From the NCBI GenBank assembly GCA_019637975.1, contig JAHBUR010000009.1:1-64000 (forward strand): 64,000 bases of DNA, read 5' to 3'. The translations under genes were made by a program, and so were the position numbers. The notes under the pieces were generated by a model. That model worked only from the letters and a program-made list of their open reading frames with translations. It ran no database searches and was not told the DNA's origin. Below are positions 26,089 through 53,840 of this stretch, in pieces; the first letter of the stretch is position 1; the number at the start of each line of letters is the position of its first letter. Origin of the DNA: Bacteroidota bacterium. GTDB taxonomy: Bacteria; Bacteroidota; Ignavibacteria; UBA10030; UBA6906.

Positions 26089-26984
26089 CTGTGCAGAAAA
26101 CGTACTCCTACGCTGCATCGGTAAAGTCGGGAGTCTCCGATGAACTCATCAACACCTATCTGATACGCCCGCTGGCTGGCATCGCTGTCCGTCTCATCTA
26201 CAGTACCCCCCTAACACCAAACCATGTTACGATCGCATCGATATTCGTCGGGCTGGTTGCTGCGTATTTCTATCTCGAAGGCACGGCGTTGCACAACCTC
26301 GTCGCCGGTTTTTGCATAACGGTAAAGGATGTTCTGGATTCCGCCGACGGGCAACTGGCCCGGGCAAGACAGCAGTACAGTCGCGTCGGCCGGTTTCTCG
26401 ACTCTATCGGTGATATAATTGTAAATGCTCTTGTGTTCTGCGCTATCACTGTTGCGCTCATATACGGCTCCGGTTCCGCAGCGCTGGCCTTCCTTGGCGT
26501 ACTCGCATTCGTCGGCACAACTCTCCGGGTTTCCTACCACGTATTCTACCATACATCATTTCTTCACTTGAGCAACTCATACGAAGCAAACAGAGTTACG
26601 GAGGACATCACTTGCGAAGATGCGCAAGAAACGCCCATGACGCTTCGTCTCCAGCGTGTATTTTTGTTCCTGTACGGATGGCAGGATAGACTCATGGTAG
26701 AAATTGATCGTTGGTGTTACGGAAAAGGTGAACCCGATTCGAGATTCTTCAAGCGATGGTACAGCGACCGCATCGGATTGCGATTGTCGGGGTTGTTGGG
26801 GTTGGGAACGGAGTTGTTTCTCTTAATGCTGCTTTCTGTTACGAATCACCTGCAGGAATACCTTCTTGCCAACATCTTCGGCATGAACTGCATATGGGGC
26901 ATTTCCGTTTTGTACCGGAAGCGTTTCCTTGCACAACAAGTCAAGGATGCACAGCATCCCGATCGCCTGTCAGGTGGTCCATAA
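26085..26984 (+). CDS. CDP-alcohol phosphatidyltransferase family protein (second copy)
   Basis: A 299-residue membrane enzyme with the full CDP-alcohol transferase signature, DSADGQLARARQQYSRVGR followed by FLDSIGD (about residues 83-108). It starts with GTG overlapping the stop of the cytidylyltransferase gene. The organisation mirrors the first copy: N-terminal TPNHVTIASI, two transmembrane halves, and a polar stretch (about 155-210, NRVTEDITCEDAQE) between them. Two such enzymes around a single activating enzyme suggest either two acceptors or two sequential steps, as in making an inositol- or amino-alcohol-type lipid. The 3' end overlaps the convergent coiled-coil gene by 44 bp, so neither gene has a separate terminator there. 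Confidence 0.9.
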   Translation: MTVQKTYSYAASVKSGVSDELINTYLIRPLAGIAVRLIYSTPLTPNHVTIASIFVGLVAAYFYLEGTALHNLVAGFCITVKDVLDSADGQLARARQQYSRVGRFLDSIGDIIVNALVFCAITVALIYGSGSAALAFLGVLAFVGTTLRVSYHVFYHTSFLHLSNSYEANRVTEDITCEDAQETPMTLRLQRVFLFLYGWQDRLMVEIDRWCYGKGEPDSRFFKRWYSDRIGLRLSGLLGLGTELFLLMLLSVTNHLQEYLLANIFGMNCIWGISVLYRKRFLAQQVKDAQHPDRLSGGP

Positions 26985-29900
26985 TGGCAGCATGTTGATC
27001 TACTGTAATGCCCATTTGTTCACGCAGATGGGCGGTTGCCTCCATATGATCACGGCCGAGTTGCTTCGCGTCGAGCATTCGCCGCATGGTATCGGCGTAT
27101 GCCTCAACCCGGATGGAACGTTCCATAACAGCATGATCGTTTTCGCTAATACCAAGAGAGGAACGGATTGCAGCCAACAACGATGCTTCTTCGCCGGCAG
27201 GGTTGCCCTCGCTCCAGAGGTGTTTGAGAAAACTTCTGTACAATCCGACCGACTCCTTGCGTAACGTCGACCGACGTTCACTCAACGTCCGTTCTCTGGC
27301 TTCTTCCTCCCGCTTCCATGCCGTGCCCCGGTTTGTGCGTTGTTCAAACACGCGCCGCGCCTCTTCTTTGAGGTTCATGTCATTCAGGATATCCATCTCA
27401 TAATCCTGGGCACGCGTGTGTGAAGGATCGATAGCGTATACGGTTTCGATTTCTGCTCGCGCTTTGTCGAATTGACGATGCCGGTAGAAATCTTCAATCT
27501 TTTTGAGAATCACATCGATCTTGCTCTTGCGAATTGCACGCTTCTCCTCCTCCTCGCGCTCTTTAAGTGTAAGTTCGGCGATTTCCTTTTGAAGCGATTC
27601 GACTTTGTGAAGATGTTCCTCCCGCCAGCGGCGGGCGCCCTCTTTCCGTTTGACCTGATGTTGACGCCCGTTGTAGATCTCCGTTTCCAACTCCTTGGCT
27701 TCGGCGTCGGTTGGATTGACGAGATAGATTTTCGTCACTTCCTTCATTGCATCCTCGAACCGACCAGCGGCAAGGAACTGCCTTGCCGACTCAAAGTATG
27801 AACGGAGTTTCTTTTGTTGGGCCAATCGTCGCCCCTCCGCGATTGCCTGACGGACCGCCTCTTCGTGGTTCTTCGTCAGAATTTCCTGCTCATCCTTGAG
27901 GCGTTCGATCTCGGCCTGCCTCAACCGTTCGGATTCTTCATCCTTTCGACGCTTTTCGGCAAGAAGGCGCTGTTCCTCCTCCTCAATTCGACGTGCCTCA
28001 TGTTCTGCCTTTTGTTGCGCTTCATGCTCAATGCGCCGTCGCTCGGCTTGAAGAAGTTGTTCTTGTTCGGCCTCTACGCGCCGTTGCTCTTCCTCAATCT
28101 GTTGTTGGTATTCTTTCTCGATGCGTATTCGCTCTTCATCATCAGCCCGTTGTTTGAGTGCGCGCTCTTCTTGTTCCTTCTGTTCGGCAAGTTCAAGCTT
28201 GCGACGTTCCTCTTCAAGCCGGGCTTGCAGTTCATCTTCAATGCGCTGACGCTCGGTTTCCAGTTTCGCGGAAGCGGCACGCTCAAGACGCAGACGCTCT
28301 GCTTCAAGTTCTTCCTGTGCTTCTTCCTGAATCCGTTTCCGGGTTTCTTCTTCCAGGTACTTCTGCTTCTCTATTTCCGCCACGTGTCGTGCCTCTTCGT
28401 TGGCACGCCGTTCCTCCTCTTCGCGTTTGCGGGCTTCCTCGGCGGACTTCAGTCGCGTTTCCCGCTCGATGCGTTTACGCTCGGCCTCGAGGAGTTGCTG
28501 ATGTTCCTCGGCAAGCCGTCGTCGCTCCTCTTCAATCTGACGTTTGAATTCCTCCTCAATGCGCCGGCGCTCTTCCTCCTCTGCCCGTTTCCGGACTTCC
28601 ATTGCTTCGTTCTCCCGCCGGTGCTCCTCATCGAGTTTGCGTTGCTGCTCTTCGATTCTGGCTTGCAGTTCCTTCTCGATACGTCTCCGTTCTGCTTCCA
28701 GTCGGGCCTGTGCCTCAGCCTCAATCCGCTTGCGTTCCTCTTCGAGTTGCTGACTTGCCTGTTCGGCGATGAGCCGCCGGGCATTCTCTTCTTCTTCTTT
28801 CAGACGAAGTTCCTGCTGCCTGCGCTGCTCCTCTTCCTGGCGTTTTCGAAGTTCTTCCGCCTCGATGCGTGCACGCTTTTCTTCATCGTAGCGTCGGCGT
28901 TCTTCTTCAAGCTTGCGGGTTGCCTCCTCAAGCTTTCTGCGGATTTCCTCTTCGGCCCGTTTGTGGGCCTCTTCCAAATCACGTCGACGAAGTTCTTCCT
29001 CCCGTTTCCGTTTGGATTCAATTTCCGCTGATTGCTGTACAGAAGCTTCATCGAGTTTTCTACGCTTTTCTTCTCCTTTCAACGCCGCATCGATAATCTC
29101 GCGTTGACGGGCAAGTTCCTCTTCAACCCTCCTCCGCTGGTCTTCTGCACGTTGGCGCGCTTCTTCGGCGAGCTTTCGTTGCTCTTCTTGTTCTTTTCGA
29201 CGTACTTCTTCTGCAAGTCGGAGCAGTTCTTCCTCCTCAGCCCTGCGCCGTGATGCTTCGGTGATTTTGCGAACTTCCTCTTCTGCAAGCCGCTTTGCAT
29301 CCTCGGCTTCGCGCATTGCTTTTTCTGCAATACTTCGCTTTTCCTCTTCACCGGCTTTAATGAGGGCTTCCAACTCGGCACGCTGACGGGCGATTTCCTG
29401 CTCTGCAAGTCGTTTTGTTTCTTCCACAACACGCTGAATCTCGGCTTCAGCAGATTTACGCGTTTCTTCGGCTATGCGGCGTCGTTCTTGTTCCTCTTCA
29501 TTGAGGCGACGCTCCATTTCAGCACGTTGCCGCGCAATTTCTTGCTCGGCCTGACGTTTCGCCTCCTCGGCGGTGCGGAGAGCCTCCTCGGCAATTTTTC
29601 TTTTTTCTTCCTCACCTGCTTTGACTATTGCTTCCAAGTGGGAACGTTGTCGGGCAAGCTCCTCCTCGGCCTTCCGCCGAGCTTCCTCAGCTTTGAGGCG
29701 CTGTTCTTCTTCCCATTTGCGTTTCTGCTCCTCGGCGAGACGATCCTGCTCTACCTTCTCCGCTTTCTGGATGGCTTCGTGCGCAATGCGACGGCTTTCC
29801 TCCTCGATTGCCTTGAGTTTCTCTTCAAGTTCGGCGCGCTGGCGGAGGCTTTCCTCATTGCTCTTCTTCCGAACCTCCTCGATCTTCAATGCAGCTTCAA

Positions 29901-30348
29901 CCAACGATTTTTGACGGGCAAGTTCGGCTTCGATTTTCTGACGAGATTCGGTGGCGCGACGTTGGGATTCGTCGTCAACCGGTTCGCTTTTCTTCTGTTT
30001 ATCAGCACTTTTGCCAAGCCCGCGTTCTTCTCTGACTGCAAGATTCTCAGCAGCCGGCGTGCGTATCTCAGCAACACGAGCAGTACGCGTTTCGGGCTGG
30101 TTCGATGGAGGTGAAGTTAGTGGCGATGACGATGATGATGGTGTTCGCTTCGCATGCTGTTCTTGAAGAGCATAGTGGACGCGTTCCCGATATGCAAGTG
30201 CATACGGATTGTTCGGATCGGTATCCATGGCCTGTTGGACAAGCCGTTGCGCGCCCTCATAATCGGCAACCTTGAACAGCTTGTCAGCCATTTTCAGGTA
30301 TTCGCCGCTTCTCTTGCGCCGCTCTTGTGCTTCGTCCAATTCAGCCAT
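26941..30348 (-). CDS. Giant charged helical protein with terminal TPR-like segments
   Basis: A 1135-residue protein without signal peptide or membrane segment. Residues about 15-58 form a TPR-like helix pair (YEGAQRLVQQAMDTDPNNPYA); about 65-125 are a flexible Ser/Pro-rich linker; about 125-860 are an almost unbroken E/R/K/A/Q stretch with repeated units of the form A-E-E-E-x-A-R-Q-R, consistent with a very long coiled coil or ER/K single alpha-helix. Two more TPR-like pairs follow (FEDAMKEVTKIYLVNPTDAEA, FDKARAEIETVYAIDPSHTRA). The last ~100 residues hold a tandem motif: L-x2-L-R-x2-L-G-I-S-x2-D-H-A and L-R-E-x-M-G-I-T-x-D-Q-H-A. A near-consensus promoter drives it. It is probably a cytoplasmic scaffold or spacer; no enzyme domain is visible. 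No SD precedes the ATG. Confidence 0.85.
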   Translation of the reverse strand: MAELDEAQERRKRSGEYLKMADKLFKVADYEGAQRLVQQAMDTDPNNPYALAYRERVHYALQEQHAKRTPSSSSSPLTSPPSNQPETRTARVAEIRTPAAENLAVREERGLGKSADKQKKSEPVDDESQRRATESRQKIEAELARQKSLVEAALKIEEVRKKSNEESLRQRAELEEKLKAIEEESRRIAHEAIQKAEKVEQDRLAEEQKRKWEEEQRLKAEEARRKAEEELARQRSHLEAIVKAGEEEKRKIAEEALRTAEEAKRQAEQEIARQRAEMERRLNEEEQERRRIAEETRKSAEAEIQRVVEETKRLAEQEIARQRAELEALIKAGEEEKRSIAEKAMREAEDAKRLAEEEVRKITEASRRRAEEEELLRLAEEVRRKEQEEQRKLAEEARQRAEDQRRRVEEELARQREIIDAALKGEEKRRKLDEASVQQSAEIESKRKREEELRRRDLEEAHKRAEEEIRRKLEEATRKLEEERRRYDEEKRARIEAEELRKRQEEEQRRQQELRLKEEEENARRLIAEQASQQLEEERKRIEAEAQARLEAERRRIEKELQARIEEQQRKLDEEHRRENEAMEVRKRAEEEERRRIEEEFKRQIEEERRRLAEEHQQLLEAERKRIERETRLKSAEEARKREEEERRANEEARHVAEIEKQKYLEEETRKRIQEEAQEELEAERLRLERAASAKLETERQRIEDELQARLEEERRKLELAEQKEQEERALKQRADDEERIRIEKEYQQQIEEEQRRVEAEQEQLLQAERRRIEHEAQQKAEHEARRIEEEEQRLLAEKRRKDEESERLRQAEIERLKDEQEILTKNHEEAVRQAIAEGRRLAQQKKLRSYFESARQFLAAGRFEDAMKEVTKIYLVNPTDAEAKELETEIYNGRQHQVKRKEGARRWREEHLHKVESLQKEIAELTLKEREEEEKRAIRKSKIDVILKKIEDFYRHRQFDKARAEIETVYAIDPSHTRAQDYEMDILNDMNLKEEARRVFEQRTNRGTAWKREEEARERTLSERRSTLRKESVGLYRSFLKHLWSEGNPAGEEASLLAAIRSSLGISENDHAVMERSIRVEAYADTMRRMLDAKQLGRDHMEATAHLREQMGITVDQHAAIMDHLTGDRDAVHP

Positions 30349-32684: not shown

Positions 32685-34277
32685 CTACAATCGTACGCTC
32701 AGTTCGGCAAATACAGAATTCGACACTGTACCATACCCGCTCAGCCTGTCGTACGATGCGACAAAGTTGAGTTCTCTCGTAAGAAACACTATCACGTCAA
32801 CGCCTAGTGTGGAGCTTGAGCTTCTCACATCGGTTTGCTTCACCGTGTAACCGTTGCGATGTGCGCGAAGAATGATATCGAGAAGTTGCGCGAAAGTTTT
32901 CTGGATCGAAACACCGTATCCGGTTCCACGTGTAAACTGATTCGCATTCACATTCATAGTGGTACGGATGCCGATTCCACTTGAAAGAACATCAGAGATG
33001 TTGATTGCCGAGTAGTTCGAGTAGTCCCTGCCGAACGATGCGTGTTCTGAAGACCGGGGCGTATACGTATTGAACAGCGATATACCACCCGGCAACAGGA
33101 TATTCACGCTGATACTCACTCCAGAGCGTACGTCGTTCCTCAGAAGTGAATCCGGAATATGCCGTACGGTTTCGAAGCTGTAATACGGTCTGGATGCGTC
33201 GGCCCCGATGCCGACACTCACCGGACGGATGATACGATAGTTGAGATGAACGTTCGCACCGGTCAGCTTGGGCGAGAGGATGAAGTTGCTGCCGGACTTT
33301 CTTCTCAAGTCAATTTCCGTATTGGCATAGAGAAAGAGGTTCGACGCAAGCGAAGCATTCATCAGCACACTGGTTACCTCCCGGTCAAGCGCCGACCGAA
33401 AGTACGTACGTGCATACGCAGTCGAAACAGACAACGCAATGCGATCGGGTGTTCTGTACTGTGCGAATACCGCAACCTTCCTATAGTCTGTGGAAATGCT
33501 GCGCAGATTGAATGCGGGTTGGTATCCGACTGTCACTCCCGCAGTCAGGTTGCCAAACGCTTTCGACACGAGCGCCCCGTCGATATAGCCGATGGAGGGC
33601 GAAAAGACAGGTATAATCCGCCCGAAAGAAAGAACATTCTCACCGTCATCGTAACTTACCGAGAGACCGTAAACACGGGTTTGGTTGATCGCTCCTCCGG
33701 AGAACGGGCTTTTGTTTCCGACAGAAAGGGTTCTGACATTTGCGTATACGTCGAACTTCAGAGGGATGTCGCGCAGCGTGCCGCGCAAGTTAACGACAAC
33801 TCCGGGCTGTGAACTGTTGAACAGTGTATTGTCGTAGAGAGATGCGAAGTACTGGGCGCTAAGCCTACCTCGCACGCTCAGAATGTTTTCCTGGACAGAA
33901 ACAGGGGGCAACGCACGCGGATTGGGAAGCGGAACCCTCGAAGGTTGATCTGCCGTTCGGATAGTGTCGGTTGCCGGCCGGATTGTTTCAACAATTTCTA
34001 TGGTTCCGAACACCTCATCACCGATGCCGGTAGAACGCGTGCCGTGCAAAACGCGGCAGGCCGAGGACTTCGAACTCACAGCAAACACTTTCAACGCTGT
34101 CGTATCACTGCCCGAAACAACAAAAAGAAGAGTAGAATCCTGAACCCCCGACTCTCTCCCCAGCGACGTGTACACTGTTCCGCTTGCCACGTACGTCACC
34201 TTACCACGTATGTGCTTCACTTCACCTCTTGCGCTCAGTGCAAGCAGTATGCACACCCACACATATCTTCTCCTCAT
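32685..34277 (-). CDS. Outer-membrane beta-barrel of the cytochrome operon
   Basis: A 530-residue exported protein. The start MRRRYVWVC at 34277 overlaps the stop of the 37-heme gene by one base (TAATG) and opens a signal peptide. Residues about 20-90 form a small beta domain (HIRGKVTYVASGTVYTSLG, then G-D-E-V-F-G) resembling SH3/FlgT-C-like periplasmic modules; a Pro-rich linker follows; and residues about 130-530 show regular alternating strands with a terminal barrel strand ending SVFAELSVRL. That length suits 18-22 strands. In porin-cytochrome conduits a barrel of this kind sheathes a multiheme cytochrome through the outer membrane, and this position in the operon suggests the same here (inference). 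It carries no heme motif. Confidence 0.75.
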   Translation of the reverse strand: MRRRYVWVCILLALSARGEVKHIRGKVTYVASGTVYTSLGRESGVQDSTLLFVVSGSDTTALKVFAVSSKSSACRVLHGTRSTGIGDEVFGTIEIVETIRPATDTIRTADQPSRVPLPNPRALPPVSVQENILSVRGRLSAQYFASLYDNTLFNSSQPGVVVNLRGTLRDIPLKFDVYANVRTLSVGNKSPFSGGAINQTRVYGLSVSYDDGENVLSFGRIIPVFSPSIGYIDGALVSKAFGNLTAGVTVGYQPAFNLRSISTDYRKVAVFAQYRTPDRIALSVSTAYARTYFRSALDREVTSVLMNASLASNLFLYANTEIDLRRKSGSNFILSPKLTGANVHLNYRIIRPVSVGIGADASRPYYSFETVRHIPDSLLRNDVRSGVSISVNILLPGGISLFNTYTPRSSEHASFGRDYSNYSAINISDVLSSGIGIRTTMNVNANQFTRGTGYGVSIQKTFAQLLDIILRAHRNGYTVKQTDVRSSSSTLGVDVIVFLTRELNFVASYDRLSGYGTVSNSVFAELSVRL

Positions 34278-37057
34278 TACACATTCCTGTGGCAACTGTA
34301 ACATGCCGGACTATTGTACTGGTAGCCGGGAACACCTTGGTGTTCATCATCCATTTCCGATTGTCTGTGTTCGTGGCAACTGATGCACGTGAAGTTCTGA
34401 TATTGGCCGATCGACGGGTGGCACTGCGAGCAACTCGTCCACTTGTTTCGATGCTTGCCGGAGTAAATCCTGAAGAATTGCTGATCATGGTTGAACGTTG
34501 AAGGAAGCCACGCCGACTGTGTATGGCACGGCGTGCAATCGTGACCAAATTGCAGCGTGACGTGATTCGGGTTCGTCGGGATAGCGTACTGCGTTGCGTG
34601 GCATTGATAGCAGTTCGTGTACGTGAGTTGGTAGTTTCCGTTCACATGACACGAAATGCAGGCAGTCGCGGTATGTGCGCCTGTCAAAGGAAAACTCGTT
34701 GATGAATGATTGAATGTCGCTGGCTGCCACGCTGACTGCGTATGGCACGTCAGACACTCATGACTGAACTGCCCTTGCTGATGATTCGGATTTGTCGTTG
34801 CATTGAAATCCCCGGAGTGACAATCCCAGCATGTGTTCGGAAGTCCCTGATATTGGTTGTTGATGTGACACTGATTGCACGACACTGCCTGGTGCGCGCC
34901 AACAAGCGGAAACGGCGTACTTGCATGACTGAATGTCGACGGCATCCACGCAGTTGTTGTATGGCAGGGCACGCAGTCGTGACTGAAATTACCAAGAACG
35001 TGGTTCGGACTTTGCGGCTGCGCATACTGCGTTGTATGACACGGATAGCAATTTGTGTACACAAGCTGATAGTTGCCGTTGATGTGGCACTGCTGGCATT
35101 GTGCCGTCAGATGCCGGCCTGTGAGCGGAAACTTTGTAGTTGAATGATTGAATGATGCGGGTTGCCATGCAGATTGCGTGTGGCATTGCAAACAATCGTG
35201 ACTGAATTGTCCCTGCTGATGGTTCGGATTTGTTGTATTGTTGAACGTCGTTGCATGACAATCCCAGCATGTACCAGGAAGACCCTGATATTGGTTGTTG
35301 ATGTGACATTGATTGCACGACACGGACTGATGGGCACCGACGAGCGGGAACGGCGTAGTCGAATGACTGAAAGTTGACGGCAGCCATGTTGCTGTTGTAT
35401 GGCATGGCGCACAATCCTGATTGAAATTTCCGAGAACGTGGTTCGGGTTCTGCGGAAGGGCGTACTCGGAAGTGTGGCACGGATAGCAGTTTGTGTACAC
35501 AAGCTGGTAGTTGCCGTTGATATGGCATTGTGCACATTGTGCGGAAAGGTGCCTGCCTGTCAACGGGAAGTTTGTGGTATTATGGTCGAACGATGCGCCA
35601 TCCCAACCGTTTGTTGAGTGGCATTGTGTACAATCATGGCTGAAATTCCGCTGCACATGGTTCGGATCTGTCGCTCCAAGATAATTGTGAGAATGGCAAT
35701 CCCAGCATGTTCCGGGCAAGTTCTGATATACACTGTTCACATGGCATTGATTGCACTGCGTGGCAATGTGACGGCCTGTGAGCGGAAAACCTGTCGCTCC
35801 ATGATTAAACGATGAGGGAACCCATGCCGACGTGGTATGACACGGCGTACAATCGAGGGCGAAGCTCGGTGTTGCATGCCGCGGATTTGTCGGAAGATTA
35901 TAATTTGCCTGATGGCACTCGTAACAATTTGTATAGGTAAGCTGGTAGTTATTGTTGATGTGACATGCCTGGCATTGCGTACCGGCATGCCGCCCGGTCA
36001 ACGGAAATTGTGTCGCGTTATGGTCGAACTGCGCCGGACTCCATGCGATTGAAGTATGACACAGTTGACAGTCCGTCGGAAAACTGCCTGCAACATGGTT
36101 CGGGTTCATTGCGGAATTGAACTGCGTGCGATGGCATGAAACACAATCTGTAGGCTTTCCCGCAAACACATTGTCGGCGTGGCAATCCCGGCACTGCTGA
36201 TTGCGATGGGCACCAACAAGCGGAAACCGTGTCTGATCGTGGTTGTACGCGACTCCGGACCATCGCGAAGTGGTATGGCACGTTTGACATGCAGTCGAAA
36301 AGCGAGCCGCCGCATGATTCGGATTTGCCGTCGAAGTATACTCAGGCTGGTGACAAGACACACATTCCGTTGGTGTTGATTTGAAGACCTGGTTCTTGTG
36401 ACAGGTAAAGCACGATGCCGCAACATGTGCCCCCGTGAGAGGAAATCGCGTCAGTTCGTGTTGGAATCCCGTTCCCCACCTGAACGCCGTAACGTCGTGG
36501 CACTGCATGCAATCGGTGGAAAATCCTGACGTAACATGATTCGGAGATCGTGCAGCCGAAAAATCCTCCTTGTGACACCCAAAGCAATCAATCGGGGTCC
36601 CCGCAAACTGCTTCTGAGCGGCATTCGTGTGGCATGTCTGGCAGGGTAATGTCGAGTGTTTGCCGAGGAGTGGAAATCGGGTTGATTGATGTCTCTGCAC
36701 CATGTCGGCAATTTTCCAAGACTGCGTTGTATGACATCGCAAGCAGTTGTTTCCCATCTCACTTTTGTGAACATCGGTGTGACATGACAGGCAGTCCGAA
36801 GACTTCTTGGGAAATTTCAGGCCTTCATGACACGATACACACTGCAGCGACGTGTGTTGCCCGGTCAATGCAAAACCTGTTGCTTCGTGGTTGAATATAC
36901 CACCGTCCTTTATTTTCCACGTTTCCGTTGTGTGACATGTCCTGCATTCGAAACGGATTTTGCCGTGAGGCGATTCCTGTGCTGCCCCGTTTTCGGCTAC
37001 GGAAAAAACCGATATAAAAATGCTCAGAAGACAAAGGAACAGTCTCAGCTTCTTCAT
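34277..37057 (-). CDS. 37-heme c-type cytochrome built of tri-heme repeats
   Basis: A 926-residue exported cytochrome with 37 CXXCH motifs by my count, one heme per 25 residues. The start MKKLRLFLC at 37057 gives a standard signal peptide (cleavage near GAAQ-E) and leaves 50 bp after the upstream gene. Residues 38-182 hold six motifs in irregular order. From residue 183 a 73-74-residue unit recurs about ten times, each with three CXXCH and three other histidines in F-x-H, G-[RA]-H and N-P-N-H, enough to ligate every heme on both sides. The spacing within a unit is 32, 16 and 25 residues. There is no other domain, sorting signal or lipobox. It probably serves as a long electron wire in the periplasm or outside the cell. 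Confidence 0.95.
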   Translation of the reverse strand: MKKLRLFLCLLSIFISVFSVAENGAAQESPHGKIRFECRTCHTTETWKIKDGGIFNHEATGFALTGQHTSLQCVSCHEGLKFPKKSSDCLSCHTDVHKSEMGNNCLRCHTTQSWKIADMVQRHQSTRFPLLGKHSTLPCQTCHTNAAQKQFAGTPIDCFGCHKEDFSAARSPNHVTSGFSTDCMQCHDVTAFRWGTGFQHELTRFPLTGAHVAASCFTCHKNQVFKSTPTECVSCHQPEYTSTANPNHAAARFSTACQTCHTTSRWSGVAYNHDQTRFPLVGAHRNQQCRDCHADNVFAGKPTDCVSCHRTQFNSAMNPNHVAGSFPTDCQLCHTSIAWSPAQFDHNATQFPLTGRHAGTQCQACHINNNYQLTYTNCYECHQANYNLPTNPRHATPSFALDCTPCHTTSAWVPSSFNHGATGFPLTGRHIATQCNQCHVNSVYQNLPGTCWDCHSHNYLGATDPNHVQRNFSHDCTQCHSTNGWDGASFDHNTTNFPLTGRHLSAQCAQCHINGNYQLVYTNCYPCHTSEYALPQNPNHVLGNFNQDCAPCHTTATWLPSTFSHSTTPFPLVGAHQSVSCNQCHINNQYQGLPGTCWDCHATTFNNTTNPNHQQGQFSHDCLQCHTQSAWQPASFNHSTTKFPLTGRHLTAQCQQCHINGNYQLVYTNCYPCHTTQYAQPQSPNHVLGNFSHDCVPCHTTTAWMPSTFSHASTPFPLVGAHQAVSCNQCHINNQYQGLPNTCWDCHSGDFNATTNPNHQQGQFSHECLTCHTQSAWQPATFNHSSTSFPLTGAHTATACISCHVNGNYQLTYTNCYQCHATQYAIPTNPNHVTLQFGHDCTPCHTQSAWLPSTFNHDQQFFRIYSGKHRNKWTSCSQCHPSIGQYQNFTCISCHEHRQSEMDDEHQGVPGYQYNSPACYSCHRNV
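34373..36511 (-). repeat. Tandem ~219-bp coding repeats (tri-heme units)
   Basis: About 9.7 in-frame units of 219-222 bp encode residues 183-895 of the 37-heme cytochrome. Each unit supplies three CXXCH and three distal-ligand His. Key positions within a unit are CxxCH, W at +4, F-x-H at about +16, F-P-L-[TV]-G-x-H, CxxCH, Y-x-x-x-Y or similar, CxxCH and N-P-N-H. Confidence 0.9.
34757..35632 (-). repeat. Two adjacent near-identical 438-bp blocks
   Basis: Units 5-6 (residues 476-621) and 7-8 (622-767) form two 146-residue blocks that match at almost every position, with a third, more diverged copy beginning at unit 9. The nucleotide sequence is also closely similar (compare 35041-35100 with 35479-35540). 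This is a higher-order duplication on top of the 219-bp unit. Confidence 0.8.
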
Positions 37058-37107
37058 TCCTGATTGATTAGCTGTGGCATTGATTTCGTTTTGGTTCACG
37101 GTTGCAG

Positions 37108-38754
37108 TCATTGCCTCATACTCCCTTGCGTATGACATGATTCGCATTTCGTGGACAGCGGCTTGTAGCGAACAAATCTGCCGATGCTACTCTGTTCTTC
37201 CTGATGACACTGACGGCAATCGACGCGTGAGTGTCCGCCCGTCAAAGCAAACGAACTGTGTGTATTGTGGTCGAATACCAACGACTTCCATCCTGATGCT
37301 TCATGGCAGCTTGCGCAGGTTGTTTCACCGTTCTTTGCAAACTGTCCCATGTGGACTTCCTTGTGGCACGATTCGCATTTTGAAGGCGTATTCTTGAATT
37401 GAGCAATTTCTGCGTTTCCGATCCTGACTGGTTTGTGACAGCTTGCGCATTTCGTCTGAGTATGCTTGCCGACCAGGGCGAAGCGTGTTTTCGAGTGATC
37501 GAATTTATTGGGAAACCAGTCTTCCGTTGAATGACACGCGGCGCAATTCTGCCCTGCCATTTCAACGGCAAACTGCCCCTTGTGTACATCGTTGTGGCAT
37601 CCGTCGCATTGAATATTCGGAACCCGAAAAGTCTTTCTCCCGTCATTACCGACCGCGTGACATTTCTCGCAAGGTGTCGCCACGTGGGCGCCTGTCAGTG
37701 GAAAGCGTGCAGTGTTGTGAGCAGCAATAGTGTATGTTGCCGGCCGGAATCCGAATGGAGTATGGCACGATTCGCATTTGCTCTCGAACCTCGCCGAAAA
37801 TTCCCCCTTGTGATAGTCGGTATGACAATCACGACACGCATTGTGTGCCAACTTCAGCCGCTGACCGGGAACCGGAAATGTTGCCGATTTGTGGCATTTA
37901 TCGCATTGGACGGACGCATGTTTTCCTACAAGTCGGAAAGGCGTCAAGTCATGGTTGAACTTGTTGCTTGCCCGCGCACTCCCCCATCCCTCATCTGTAT
38001 GACAGGAGTTGCAAGCCTGTTTTCCGACAAAATCGATACTGTGGGGCGATCGATGGCAGGGGGCACAATCAGGAAAAGACTTCGTCGAGAAAAGAAGAGC
38101 GGTTTCTCTCTCTGCCCGTTCAAAGTCAGCGTGGCATCCGATACACGCTACCGTGGTATGTTTGCCCCGTAACGGGAATTCCGTCTTCGCATGATTGAAA
38201 AATGCTGCCGGCCTCCAAGACGTTGTCGTATGGCAGGTTTGACATTCCTTGCCTACAGTGGCATTATGCCTGTCAGCATGGCAACCGGCGCAGGCTTGAG
38301 AAAGCCCGAGATAAGTCTCCCGTCCGGTTTGCTTCACAAGTGCAAGTATGCCCGGGTCTTTGATGTTTTTTGTGGAATGGCAATCCTCGCACCGGATTGT
38401 TGCATGTTTCCCCGTCCGGTTGAAGCCTGTTTGCGCATGATCGAACGTATTCTTGTCGAACAAAATTGTCTGCGCATCGCGGCCGAGATGTTCCTTGTGG
38501 CACGCAACGCATCTCTGTGCGGCAACCCGGAAGTGATACCCGCGCTTCGCGTCGATGACAGACTTGATTTCCTCGTGGCACGCAAGACATTTCTGCCCGC
38601 TGATTTCCTTTCCGGTTTCATGGCACGTAAGGCAGTTCTGCATTCCTTCAAGATCAAGATGCACACGCGAGAGCTGCCCCGGCGAAAACTGAGCATAAGC
38701 GATTCCTCTCAACACAAGGAGAACAAGCAAAGGGACTATGCGTTTAGTCGCCAT
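37108..38754 (-). CDS. 20-heme c-type cytochrome
   Basis: A 548-residue exported cytochrome with 20 CXXCH motifs by my count. Signal peptide at residues 1-21 (VPLLVLLVLRGIAYA). The middle part uses a related tri-heme grammar: CQTCHTTTSW then F-x-H, G-K-H and CIGCH, and so on, with W/F-x-P and F-x-H-x3-T-x-F-x-L-x-G-x-H recurring five to six times. It therefore appears homologous to, but much more diverged than, the neighbouring 37-heme protein. ATG 38754 lies 3 bp after the cytochrome b stop (a GTG at 38757 is also possible). Gene order places it next to the membrane cytochrome b, and a periplasmic shuttle accepting electrons from it is the likely role. Confidence 0.95.
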   Translation of the reverse strand: MATKRIVPLLVLLVLRGIAYAQFSPGQLSRVHLDLEGMQNCLTCHETGKEISGQKCLACHEEIKSVIDAKRGYHFRVAAQRCVACHKEHLGRDAQTILFDKNTFDHAQTGFNRTGKHATIRCEDCHSTKNIKDPGILALVKQTGRETYLGLSQACAGCHADRHNATVGKECQTCHTTTSWRPAAFFNHAKTEFPLRGKHTTVACIGCHADFERAERETALLFSTKSFPDCAPCHRSPHSIDFVGKQACNSCHTDEGWGSARASNKFNHDLTPFRLVGKHASVQCDKCHKSATFPVPGQRLKLAHNACRDCHTDYHKGEFSARFESKCESCHTPFGFRPATYTIAAHNTARFPLTGAHVATPCEKCHAVGNDGRKTFRVPNIQCDGCHNDVHKGQFAVEMAGQNCAACHSTEDWFPNKFDHSKTRFALVGKHTQTKCASCHKPVRIGNAEIAQFKNTPSKCESCHKEVHMGQFAKNGETTCASCHEASGWKSLVFDHNTHSSFALTGGHSRVDCRQCHQEEQSSIGRFVRYKPLSTKCESCHTQGSMRQ

Positions 38755-38757
38755 CAC

Positions 38758-39618
38758 TTAAAAGATCCACCGGTATCCGAGCAACACGGTTACCGCAACG
38801 TGTGCTGCCAGCGTAATGAACATGATGACGGTAAACGGCAAGTGTATGGCATGCCAGTAAAAGAACAATTTCTCAACCTGGGCAAGCAGTACTGTTTTTT
38901 GGACGAGCGTTGTACGGGCGGAGGCAAGTTTGTAGAGTGAACGGGTCTGTTCATGCGTCATCCTGCTTTTAGCAATCATCTCACGGACGGCATGTTTTAC
39001 CTGGCGTCTTGTATTCTGCAAACGAATAAGAAGCCCGAAGGTCTCAAGCAATTTGTTCGGTTTCGGAATTGCCGAGAAGCTCTCATCTATCTTCTCTACC
39101 AATTGAAGTCCGAGAGGGGAATGCGCTATTTCGTCTCGAAGTCTGTCCAGTTCGTTGATGATTTCCTGCTGGGTCAATTCACTTCCCTTGAGATTGCGCG
39201 GAATTTGCACATACAAAAACCTGCCGATGATGCCGCTGGCCGCAACCGAAACCATGCACCACAAACTGATTGCCGCAATGCCGCCCGCTTTGAACGTGGT
39301 ATGAAACACTACAAGAATGGGACCCAGCAAACAAAGAAAGATGTGAACTTCAAGCCAGCGCGATAGCTTGCCAAGATTCCAGAGTTTCTTCACGCGTTTG
39401 CGCGTCGAATACATCGTAACCCCGATGGTAATCATCGATGCCCCGATAATCCCGAGCCCGTGGCTGTATTTGCCGGACGGTTTCATGGTGTCGTATTCGG
39501 GAAGAAAGGGTCGTTGGGGAATGGGGGTGGTGTAGTATCCGAATCCGTTGATACCGACAACGATGATTGCGGTTCCGGCTACAAAGAACAGAAACAACAG
39601 AAAGACTTTATGTGCCAA
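38758..39618 (-). CDS. Di-heme cytochrome b-type membrane protein
   Basis: A 286-residue integral membrane protein with hydrophobic segments at about 4-24, 53-70, 91-108, 112-137 and 253-283. Two histidine pairs with 13 residues between them, H92/H106 in the third segment and H259/H273 in the last, reproduce the HX13H spacing by which two b-hemes are bound between helices in bc1-type cytochrome b. A soluble helical stretch (about 141-250) separates the two halves. The start codon is TTG at 39618 with AAAGGAG five bases upstream. It is first in the cytochrome operon and should exchange electrons between quinol and the periplasmic 20-heme cytochrome. No known family name could be assigned with certainty. 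Confidence 0.82.
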   Translation of the reverse strand: MAHKVFLLFLFFVAGTAIIVVGINGFGYYTTPIPQRPFLPEYDTMKPSGKYSHGLGIIGASMITIGVTMYSTRKRVKKLWNLGKLSRWLEVHIFLCLLGPILVVFHTTFKAGGIAAISLWCMVSVAASGIIGRFLYVQIPRNLKGSELTQQEIINELDRLRDEIAHSPLGLQLVEKIDESFSAIPKPNKLLETFGLLIRLQNTRRQVKHAVREMIAKSRMTHEQTRSLYKLASARTTLVQKTVLLAQVEKLFFYWHAIHLPFTVIMFITLAAHVAVTVLLGYRWIF

Positions 39619-50977: not shown

Positions 50978-53218
50978 TTATCTGCTTACTGTGTTGGAAT
51001 ACTGCGTTCCGGCGTCAACCCATTCGATCATCATCAGCAAGTCGCGGTTTGCCGGCAGGAACGGGTCGATTCTGTTGTACTGATCCTTCGTCCACAGTTG
51101 TGTATGGTCGTACGTAAGTGTTCGGTAGTCTCTATTAGTTTGATCGTTCAATTGCTTTCCAAACATAACCCAGATGAGCGGGCTGCGTCGTGCCCCGTCA
51201 TCCCTCACGTACCGCAACTGGTTGCCGGATGGCGTGCGGTACGTTCCATTCTGCGTGATCCTTTCGTACACAGTGGTTGTGATGTTGCTGTTTGCCGGCG
51301 GCGGCGTCAGGTCGGCTGCGACTGTTTGCAGGCTGAGTGAACCAGCGGGAGCAGTTTCACCGTGACACGAAATGCAACGCCGGTCGAAAACAGCCTGGAC
51401 CGTGTTGGTCCGATTCGTTCGGTGTCTGTCGAAGAAGTCAAGTGTATCGGTTCGCGCCGCGGGATGGTTCACAACAACTTCGGCGTTATGAAACCCCGAT
51501 TCATAGGCACTGCCGCGTGCACGGTTCAAGACCTGGTTGTTCGGCGCAATCTGCAGGTCATTGATGATCTTGTCGCGATCATGTGAATCGTGACAGCCAG
51601 TGCATAAACGCTTTTCGCCCGGCATCACCTGAATCCAGGTCAGCTGGTTGACGAGCATAACGCCATGTTGGTCAAGGGTTTGGAGATGCAACGAACGGTT
51701 GGCAGGCACCTCAATTGAGAACGAACCATCCGACCTGACTGCGGCATACCCCACGACTCTTTGTTTTTCGAGATTTGTATTACCGATGGCTTGTCCCCGC
51801 CTGTTGCCTTCCCGCGGCAATGATACTGCCTCCAACACCCGCACGTACCTTACCTGGCCTGCCGTCCCGTCATCGTTCACGAATGTCGCCGATGGCCGCA
51901 CTTGCCCGTCGTTCGTCGCCCTATCATACACGTTGCCGTCAAAGAACATTCCTGTTGATGCACCGGTCGCAAGGCCGCTCGCAACATTCGGGTCCATTGC
52001 AATCACTTGCGGAATCCCGCCGGGAATTTTTTCACGAGGGAGAAGGGGAACCGGGTCGATTTCGTTGTACTCGGGATCGTTATAGATGAGGCGCAGATTA
52101 CGGCCGTCTTTATCCATAATGTAGAGCCCGTAGTCTACTCCTTCACTTCGGCTTCCCCCGGGGTCACGCGGTATGGGCGACATTGCGACGAGGATTTTCT
52201 CTCTTCTATCGGCAGAGGCGCCTTTATCAATAATCGGATGAGGAGTTTTGAAGAAGGCGCTTGTTGCCCTGCCGGAGTTGTTGAAAATTGCATCCGGCGG
52301 GGAGATAAAAGTGAGATTATCATCCGATTTTGAAATATCAATGATGGCGATTGCGCCGCCCTCAAATGGAGAATTTCGTTCCATCACCGAGCATACCAAG
52401 CCGCCGTCAGCGAGTTCACGAGCTTCTGTAAATGATCTGTCGCCGCTGGCCTGCGGAGAATGGTTGCCGTACAGAACGAACGGACGCGTCCCGTCCGGAT
52501 TCATCACGAACAGCGGAAACTTGTTCGGGTTGCCAAGATGTTCCCAGCGGCCGTAGATGATCTTTCCGCTTGAATGAACCATCGGGTTGATATCGTGGCT
52601 CTGGTTGAAGGAAATCTGCCTGATGTTGACGAGCCTTCCATCGCCCGCCCGATCTCCAACGTGAAGCAGGGGGGATTCGCGACGTTCATACTCATCAACA
52701 ATTCCGGGACGAGTCGACGTGAATACGATCTGGCCATTCGGAAGATATGCCGGATCCATATCGTCACCCGTTGATCCGTCTGTGAGTTGAACGAGATTGG
52801 TTCCATCAGAGTTCATTTCGTACAGTCGCCACCGGCTGTTCCGGTTCACTCTCATTGAGAAGAGAATCTTCCTCCCGTCGTATGATATTTCCGGATCGGC
52901 ACAGGCGCCGAAGTTGCGCGGGTCGGTAATGCCATTTGTCGTGTACTGCGCAGTCAGATTCGTCAACTTGCCCTGGCTGGAGATCGGGCTGAGCAGGTAA
53001 AGATCACTGCCGGGATAGTATTTGTCGATATTGCTACGCATCGGCTCGCTGATATTATTTGTGCGGCTTTTTTCCTTCACAAACACGAGCGCCGCCTGGC
53101 CGGATTTATCCAGAATGTCATCCGGCGGTGAAGAACCGCACGCCGCAAGCATTGCGCCGATTACTCCGTACAACAGTACATTCGAGAATATTCGGAGAAC
53201 AACTTGTTTGTGAATCAT
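50978..53218 (-). CDS. Di-heme cytochrome lipoprotein, hydrazine synthase alpha-like
   Basis: A 746-residue lipoprotein. The start MIHKQVVLR at 53218 has GGGGAGAGG just upstream; the signal ends in a lipobox (MLAAC). The body resembles HzsA, the alpha subunit of hydrazine synthase, and its wide set of non-anammox homologues: WD40-like/PD40 repeats (ISYDGRKILFSMR, WRLYEMNSDGTNLVQLT, YGLYIMDKDGRNLRLIY), a middle beta domain, and a C-terminal cytochrome part with CTGCH at about 539 and CISCH at about 615. True hydrazine synthesis is improbable: no beta/gamma subunits, hydrazine dehydrogenase or other anammox genes are here. An electron-transfer or oxidase-like role at the membrane is more likely. 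Confidence 0.82.
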   Translation of the reverse strand: MIHKQVVLRIFSNVLLYGVIGAMLAACGSSPPDDILDKSGQAALVFVKEKSRTNNISEPMRSNIDKYYPGSDLYLLSPISSQGKLTNLTAQYTTNGITDPRNFGACADPEISYDGRKILFSMRVNRNSRWRLYEMNSDGTNLVQLTDGSTGDDMDPAYLPNGQIVFTSTRPGIVDEYERRESPLLHVGDRAGDGRLVNIRQISFNQSHDINPMVHSSGKIIYGRWEHLGNPNKFPLFVMNPDGTRPFVLYGNHSPQASGDRSFTEARELADGGLVCSVMERNSPFEGGAIAIIDISKSDDNLTFISPPDAIFNNSGRATSAFFKTPHPIIDKGASADRREKILVAMSPIPRDPGGSRSEGVDYGLYIMDKDGRNLRLIYNDPEYNEIDPVPLLPREKIPGGIPQVIAMDPNVASGLATGASTGMFFDGNVYDRATNDGQVRPSATFVNDDGTAGQVRYVRVLEAVSLPREGNRRGQAIGNTNLEKQRVVGYAAVRSDGSFSIEVPANRSLHLQTLDQHGVMLVNQLTWIQVMPGEKRLCTGCHDSHDRDKIINDLQIAPNNQVLNRARGSAYESGFHNAEVVVNHPAARTDTLDFFDRHRTNRTNTVQAVFDRRCISCHGETAPAGSLSLQTVAADLTPPPANSNITTTVYERITQNGTYRTPSGNQLRYVRDDGARRSPLIWVMFGKQLNDQTNRDYRTLTYDHTQLWTKDQYNRIDPFLPANRDLLMMIEWVDAGTQYSNTVSR

Positions 53219-53252
53219 ACGCCTCTCCCCAAGATTCATGTTGTGTGTCGAT

Positions 53253-53840
53253 TTAGAAATACAGTTGCAATCCGAGCGTAAAGACGATATTATGGGAAAT
53301 GAACGGATCATTGTTCATTATTCTTTGGGAAAAAATCTGATCGCGTACATCATACCGGAATCCCAGCCTGTCGCCTCCAAACAGCCCTTTCAACGGAACT
53401 CTCTTTCCGAGACCGAGAACTCCGGCAAAGTTTGATTGCCCGCCCTGATTCAATCCCGCCACTCCAACCACAAGATAGGGAGTATAGCCATTCGGATACG
53501 GGTCAATGCCTGCAACGAACTCGTACGTATACAAGCGATCCGTATCAAAGACTTGCGATCGCGTAATGTTCTCGAGAACCTGCGATTTCAAACTTCCGAA
53601 ACTCAGGGCGCCTTCAATGAAGAACTTTCCTCCTGAAATGAAGTAGTTGTATCGCGCTCCGTAACTGAAATTCGTACCGAATCCGCTTGCGGCATATGCA
53701 CCCAGTGATATACTGACACTGTTATCGTACGGCATCTGTGCACGCACGGGGGCAGTAACGAACAGTGACAACGAAGCAATCAGCAGAATGACCCGCAAGG
53801 GAAGGCGTAAAAAGAAGATCTGAGGAAGTCGCATATTCAT
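53253..53840 (-). CDS. Outer-membrane beta-barrel protein (first of a pair)
   Basis: A 195-residue exported protein with signal peptide (about 1-35, LIASLSLFVTAPVRAQ). Strand pattern: VSISLGAYAASGFGTNFSYGARYNYF, FFIEGALSFGSL, YTPYLVVGVAGLNQG and the closing strand HNIVFTLGLQLYF with terminal Phe, consistent with an 8-stranded barrel. GGAG eight bases before ATG. It lies 34 bp before the cytochrome lipoprotein gene and 24 bp after the next barrel gene, so it belongs to the same transcript driven from 54.5 kb. Function unknown, but co-expression with DUF3570/DUF4266 suggests one outer-membrane assembly. Confidence 0.8.
   Translation of the reverse strand: MNMRLPQIFFLRLPLRVILLIASLSLFVTAPVRAQMPYDNSVSISLGAYAASGFGTNFSYGARYNYFISGGKFFIEGALSFGSLKSQVLENITRSQVFDTDRLYTYEFVAGIDPYPNGYTPYLVVGVAGLNQGGQSNFAGVLGLGKRVPLKGLFGGDRLGFRYDVRDQIFSQRIMNNDPFISHNIVFTLGLQLYF

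Follow-up and report, generated by a model that had tools for sequence, protein, structure and literature searches.

A 37-heme cytochrome built from 73-residue tri-heme units, a candidate variable-length heme chain of a PCC3-type electron conduit in Ignavibacteria and Bacteroidota

The window is the whole 64,000-nucleotide stretch of DNA analyzed in this study, taken from the genome of a member of the Ignavibacteria. A cluster of five genes is located on its minus strand (Table 1). The genes encode, in order, a 286-aa membrane protein, a 20-heme cytochrome, a 37-heme cytochrome, a predicted outer-membrane barrel and an Fe-S/flavoprotein, and the ends of neighboring genes overlap or are closely spaced. 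Both cytochromes carry Sec signals only. The gene set probably transports electrons across the cell envelope.

Table 1. Features of the cluster, with positions in the window.
Feature	Position	Strand	Basis
Membrane-anchored 2x[4Fe-4S] / pyridine-nucleotide-disulphide-oxidoreductase-like flavoprotein, 439 aa	31358..32677	-	Pfam Pyr_redox_3, Fer4; N-terminal hydrophobic stretch
Predicted outer-membrane beta-barrel, 539 aa	32685..34304	-	Start overlaps stop of 37-heme cytochrome
37-heme c-type cytochrome	34277..37057	-	37 CXXCH, spacing 32/16/25; Pfam Cytochrome_C7 in nine stretches, over cut-off
C-terminal cap, hemes 35-37, conserved	34280..34474	-	Invariant columns up to 923 in homologue alignment
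Array, nine consecutive 73-residue tri-heme units, length-variable part	34475..36445	-	Motif spacing, homologue comparison
Higher-order 438-bp repeat, two units per period	34679..35673	-	TRF; unit identities
N-terminal connector, hemes 1-7, invariant SPHG	36497..36976	-	Invariant columns 29-248 in dense block of homologue alignment
Sec signal peptide MKKLRLFLCLLSIFISVFSVAENGAAQ	36977..37057	-	One hydrophobic stretch
20-heme cytochrome partner, 549 aa	37108..38757	-	20 CXXCH
Inner-membrane protein, 286 aa, probable di-heme b	38758..39618	-	H92-X13-H106, SGXXG at 128, W255-X3-H259-X13-H273

The open frame of the long cytochrome extends over 34277..37147. A first, sequence-only reading had placed the start at the Met at 37057, which opens an ordinary Sec signal peptide; counted from there the protein has 926 aa, or 25.0 residues per heme (family median 26.1). 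The same reading had described a 37-heme cytochrome with a 73-residue tri-heme repeat and a regular spacing of 32, 16 and 25 residues. This description was confirmed: 37 CXXCH motifs were counted, and the spacing is exact across nine successive units. The complete series is 35,16,16,34,19,25,33,16,25, then 32,16,25 repeated, and finally 35,15,28; two less regular units precede the nine perfect ones, and the cap follows. From one F-x-H to the next, the order within a unit is F/Y-x-H, G-x-H, CXXCH, CXXCH, P-x-H, CXXCH. TRF detected the array solely as a 438-bp repeat of about 78% identity, and units 5/7 and 6/8 share 75 and 82% protein identity, respectively. The higher-order repeat appears to be the trace of a block duplication. 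Two further matches, an NCBIfam RelE/StbE match inside the repeat and a BMT5-like Pfam match, were rejected as chance matches on Cys/His-rich sequence.

Alignment of homologues showed a chain with conserved ends and a variable middle. The spacing of the N-terminal connector, 35,16,16,34,19,25, is common to close homologues. A Sec-type signal peptide was found in 70 of 73 homologues and a lipobox-like pattern in four. Most homologues are without a lipobox and no T9SS-type C-terminus was seen, which weighs against export beyond the outer membrane.

It had been proposed that each repeat holds exactly three non-motif histidines and is thereby stoichiometrically complete for bis-His hemes. The exact number was found in four of the nine perfect units; the other five contain four or five (five in unit 4, residues 454-526, and four in units 6-9), the surplus being mostly the His of FSHDC. 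In total, the protein has 44 non-motif histidines for 37 hemes. The proposed completeness itself stood. The F-x-H, G-x-H and (N)P-x-H positions are occupied in all nine units, with the variants AYNH, NPRH, DPNH and SPNH occurring once each. Loss of these histidines in homologues had been named beforehand as the observation that would count against the proposal; in the 73 homologues, all three were kept in 400 of 400 tri-heme-spaced units. Since the same pattern recurs in 73 homologues, it does not reflect chance. Within units of canonical spacing (n = 199), His occupies the G-x-H and P-x-H positions in 100% of cases and the F-x-H position in 92%; in the remaining 8% a His sits one or two residues off. 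No homologue with fewer non-motif histidines than CXXCH motifs was found among those examined, and the numbers are equal in a 64-heme relative (64) and a 22-heme relative (22). Met is rare, with just six residues after the signal peptide in the window cytochrome. Bis-His completeness of the repeat is strongly supported by these sequence comparisons. The counts are those that all-bis-His ligation would demand, and every heme may be ligated in this way; pairing of His and heme within or between units is not fixed by the counts.

Relatives with other units were also detected. The stand-alone 10- to 16-heme relatives at L187:4708-5853, L188:5446-6687 and L189:4580-5407, members of family f23 of the genome set and by inference Chlorobiaceae-like, have a 46-residue di-heme unit with two CXXCH and two non-motif histidines and carry a C-terminal cap similar to that of the long cytochrome. 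Theirs is a different unit that follows the same rule of one His per heme. A 1661-aa, 64-heme relative (L174:3765-8750) has 77-residue units with a spacing of 34,22,21, and its non-motif histidines fall between the motifs in a perfectly regular 2-0-1 pattern; a homologous barrel gene was not found within the stretch fetched for this locus.

The sequence-only reading had also suggested that the chain could be lengthened by repeat number, and had called for a search for homologues with other repeat counts. Such homologues were found: heme numbers (counted as CX2-4CH) range from 10 to 64 and are nearly always 3n+1. The rule holds for 61 of 73 homologues (binomial 1e-18, a value that disregards the relatedness of the homologues). 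Among 13 clusters drawn later it held for all (64, 58, 46, 22, 46, 28, 25, 34, 49, 43, 43, 28 and 37 hemes), and in a set selected because the partner is intact, with 20 or 23 hemes, it held for 54 of 59; this set includes the later-draw clusters with such a partner. In a sister genome (G001) the long cytochrome carries 31 hemes and is thus shorter by two units than that of the window; unit comparison placed the loss among units 7-9. Five pairs of clusters have a partner identity of at least 80%, and heme numbers are unequal in four of them, with differences of 12, 6, 3 and 3. Because of the two-unit loss in the sister genome and the differences between close pairs, chain length appears to change fast and in whole units; steps of two units at a time are also suggested by the 438-bp repeat. 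The modular-length part of the earlier reading is strongly supported by these comparisons.

The heme number of the partner cytochrome is far more constant. It is 20 in 62 and 23 in eight of 80 unselected ORFs of the family, the remainder being mostly shorter or split ORFs, and 20 in 56 and 23 in three of the 59 selected clusters. The difference between 20 and 23 is again a step of three.

The same gene set was found in dozens of loci of Ignavibacteria and Bacteroidota. Related loci were retrieved with the membrane protein, the alignment of the long cytochrome having no stretch conserved enough. Examples include an uncultured Chlorobi CHB1 (L070, 31 hemes) and a Melioribacteraceae MAG (L108, 61 hemes). 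A complete cluster was also detected in a cultured strain, Emticicia oligotrophica DSM 17448, where it lies on plasmid pEMTOL02 (L190:8989-17685) directly after ccsA and includes a 23-heme partner, a 40-heme chain, the barrel and the flavoprotein. CcsA, which serves c-type cytochrome biogenesis, was rejected as a member of the cluster; its motif was found in two of 58 loci and is absent from the window. The flavoprotein is kept in the cluster, and in many loci its gene is placed between those for the membrane protein and the 20-heme cytochrome.

In most clusters the ends of the barrel gene and the long cytochrome gene overlap or adjoin, which couples the two, and a barrel is present in nearly every intact cluster. 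No Pfam or NCBIfam family matched it. An AlphaFold model (pLDDT 82.5) predicted a small beta domain near the N-terminus (residues 29-103) and, beyond it, 22 strands (142-538). The matches listed by Foldseek and VIA-align were all outer-membrane barrels, the best with a Z of 20.4 over 347 residues; having a barrel fold in common points to no specific function. The sequence is too short for a plug domain as in the TonB-dependent receptors that the barrel resembles. MtrB-type barrels were absent among the listed fold matches, which excludes nothing. The cluster lacks the hallmarks of MtrAB/MtoAB, an MtrB-type porin and a decaheme MtrA: the DmsE/MtrA-type model scored far below its cut-off, and MtrA has 10 hemes, whereas the window cytochromes have 20 and 37. 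These numbers also differ from those of the OmbB-OmaB-OmcB type of Pcc (8- and 12-heme cytochromes beside an OmbB-type porin), a comparison made by heme number only.

The membrane protein links the cluster to a known class of conduits. PCC3 and PCC4 have been described as sharing a membrane protein, about 300 aa long, that has five transmembrane helices, an SGXXG motif and two WX3HX13H motifs (PMC5566968). The window protein has four clear transmembrane stretches by hydropathy and a fifth, weaker one by eye, with H-X13-H on TM3, SGXXG on TM4 and W-X3-H-X13-H on TM5 (motifs at 88/92/106, 128 and 255/259/273). Both H-X13-H pairs, SGXXG and the TM5 Trp were present in 90 of 90 homologues; the first Trp is variable in some. 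Judged by these motifs, the protein is probably of the di-heme b type.

PCC3 has been described as a porin, a periplasmic cytochrome with a median of 21 hemes and a long cytochrome with a median of 34 and up to 85 hemes (PMC5566968). The long cytochromes contain repeats, have a residue-to-heme ratio of 22-39 (median 26) and were proposed as molecular wires (PMC5566968). In Gallionellaceae the periplasmic cytochrome has 21, 24 or 27 hemes and the outer one 10-35, and the AlphaFold models are long and mostly linear (PMC10734462). The window cluster carries the membrane-protein signature, the gene set (a porin, two many-heme cytochromes and the membrane protein) and a low residue-to-heme ratio combined with repeats. 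It shares with PCC3 of Proteobacteria (He et al. 2017, PMC5566968) the gene set, the repeats, a variable heme number and approximately the number of residues per heme. It differs in its occurrence in Ignavibacteria and Bacteroidota, in heme numbers quantized as 3n+1, in the strict His stoichiometry, in a barrel of 22 predicted strands where PCC3 porins are larger, with up to 42 strands (PMC5566968), and in the addition of the Fe-S/flavoprotein, which lies outside the PCC3 components as described. The cluster is likened to PCC3 because the signature, the gene set and the residues per heme agree, and probably works in the same way; porin and cytochromes are likened by description, not by sequence homology.

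A search of plasmids for Proteobacterial PCC3 yielded only short trios of the 2Fe-2S / b-type / c3-type kind, none with a porin. They occur on plasmids of Alteromonas, Methylophaga, Sphingobium and Bradyrhizobium (L191, L192, L193, L194) and consist of a 2Fe-2S protein, a protein of about 250 aa weakly like the 286-aa membrane protein and a short c3-type cytochrome. Some of the trios adjoin hydrogenase or metal-handling genes.

The long cytochrome had been contrasted with compact decaheme proteins and with OmcS-type filaments. That contrast is incomplete, since single-chain, unpolymerized wires are already known from Geobacter: GSU1996/GSU0592 (12 hemes; PDB 3ov0, 3oue), the hemes of GSU1996 lying in four tri-heme domains, and the 27-heme GSU2210 have been described as nanowires of hemes (PMC10138318). 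The window protein resembles GSU1996 in that tri-heme domains of about 70-80 residues (here 73) are repeated in one chain. Each GSU1996 domain has one His-Met heme, whereas the window ligands all look to be His, with three per unit throughout. The order of the window unit, H-H-C-C-H-C, differs as well, the protein is linked to a porin, and its repeats are far more numerous and vary more in number than those of GSU1996 and GSU2210. OmcS, OmcE and OmcZ are likewise long heme chains for electron transport; in these, small subunits polymerize, whereas in the window protein the length is set in one gene. The nearest solved chains by profile were the sixteen-heme HmcA (1z1n, E 5e-9) and GSU1996 (3ov0, E 4e-5), the latter a weak match. 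HmcA shares the class III style of heme motifs but has a fixed heme number and no such tandem unit, and the long cytochrome scored 48.6 with the NCBIfam HmcA model against a cut-off of 400. No match for the long cytochrome was found with phmmer in the PDB. An AlphaFold model of five units (385 aa; pLDDT 76, pTM 0.40) was moderate locally and uncertain globally; Foldseek found no PDB fold match for it, which says little given the few secondary-structure elements in the model. The linear-wire shape of the long cytochrome is plausible, if unproven.

The cluster suggests a possible route for electrons. Menaquinol, or NAD(P)H via the Fe-S/flavoprotein, would feed electrons into the di-heme b inner-membrane protein, and these would pass to the 20-heme cytochrome, which would bridge the fixed width of the periplasm. 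From there they would reach the 37-heme cytochrome, docked via a conserved end at the 22-strand barrel, which would move charge to (or from) the cell exterior. What we infer here is the bis-His ligation of each heme, the geometry of the chain, its docking and its export through the outer membrane, the direction in which electrons move and the physiological partner. The rise of OmcS is about 8 A per heme. With such a rise, chains of 10, 37 and 64 hemes might reach about 8, 29 and 50 nm; for the partner with its 20 hemes the span might be about 16 nm, close to the width of a periplasm. On balance, the long cytochrome seems likely to be the variable-length heme chain of a PCC3-type porin-cytochrome electron conduit. 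A more specific version is offered tentatively and has less than an even chance of being correct: a genetically set single-chain wire, made of bis-His tri-heme quanta between two conserved connectors, inserted in a non-Mtr outer-membrane barrel and reaching outside the cell, with the length quickly adjusted by gain or loss of units and the periplasmic partner fixed at 20 hemes.

Repeat number could instead determine the number of electrons held and not the distance covered, if the long cytochrome were a periplasmic charge store (capacitor) as proposed for GSU1996, which has been described as periplasmic and capacitor-like (PMC10138318). The Sec signal and the mostly absent lipobox agree with storage, as does a heme number that varies freely while the partner stays fixed. 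Coupling of the cytochrome gene to an outer-membrane barrel gene in most clusters argues against it, and a plain store would not need two strongly conserved, connector-like ends; we regard storage as rather unlikely. It is quite improbable that the cluster serves intracellular or periplasmic respiratory wiring, to or from a periplasmic reductase, with the barrel merely an assembly partner, given the barrel in nearly every intact cluster. No recurring reductase gene was seen in the listed cluster gene orders, in which other neighbors were not annotated singly. The lack of a known terminal enzyme or mineral link would fit such wiring, and so would the occurrence in Emticicia, an isolate from warm spring water that is not known to be electroactive.

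The unit count might also be an assembly artefact, or the product of neutral repeat drift without functional bearing, as many loci are metagenome-assembled and 438-bp repeats at 78% identity can shift. At the DNA level the window units differ from one another at no fewer than 22% of positions, a divergence too great for collapse. Single- or few-contig genomes (G216, G225, G324, G274) and the isolate plasmid also obey the 3n+1 rule, and the ligand His is retained throughout. Artefact or drift is given very little credence, although a neutral change of length is conceivable. The preferred reading is still that of a heme chain in a PCC3-type conduit.

The idea of a wire is not new; it was put forward earlier for PCC3 (PMC5566968) and, in a different form, for GSU1996 (PMC10138318). 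Bioanode metagenomes have yielded large cytochromes of Ignavibacteria, Burkholderiales and Anaerolineales, and Ignavibacteria cytochromes with 33 and 40 motifs, with homologues varying in heme number, were termed an unexplored area (PMC7399161). The words "repeat" and "modular" are absent from the main text of that paper, and no unit, ladder or ligand stoichiometry was found there. Within the literature searched, the novelty lies in the strict quantization by three over 10-64 hemes, in the stoichiometry of His, in the constancy of the partner and in a version from Ignavibacteria/Bacteroidota that includes a flavoprotein. Electron hopping distance and speed along heme chains are a matter of debate, and it is difficult to engineer proteins of graded length. 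The relatives provide a natural series that rises by threes from 10 to 64 hemes while the ends and the partner genes remain similar, which makes rate, storage and reach testable against chain length. They also point to a putative widespread route of electron export (or uptake) in Ignavibacteria and Bacteroidota, including a cultured strain.

Several other genes were observed in the window and its source genome. Adjoining the cluster, 26941-30348 encodes a coiled-coil-like protein of 1135 aa that is highly charged, rich in E/K/R and without a Pfam match; the sister genome has an ORF of equal length in the corresponding position (L034:14030-17437). A 777-aa protein at 50978-53311 has a hydrazine synthase alpha middle domain (PF18582, E 3.5e-21), a PD40 repeat and two CXXCH. 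Further Cytochrome_C7-type multiheme genes are present in the source genome, in a run at G000:C4:142103-154728 and on contigs C22, C35 and C65.
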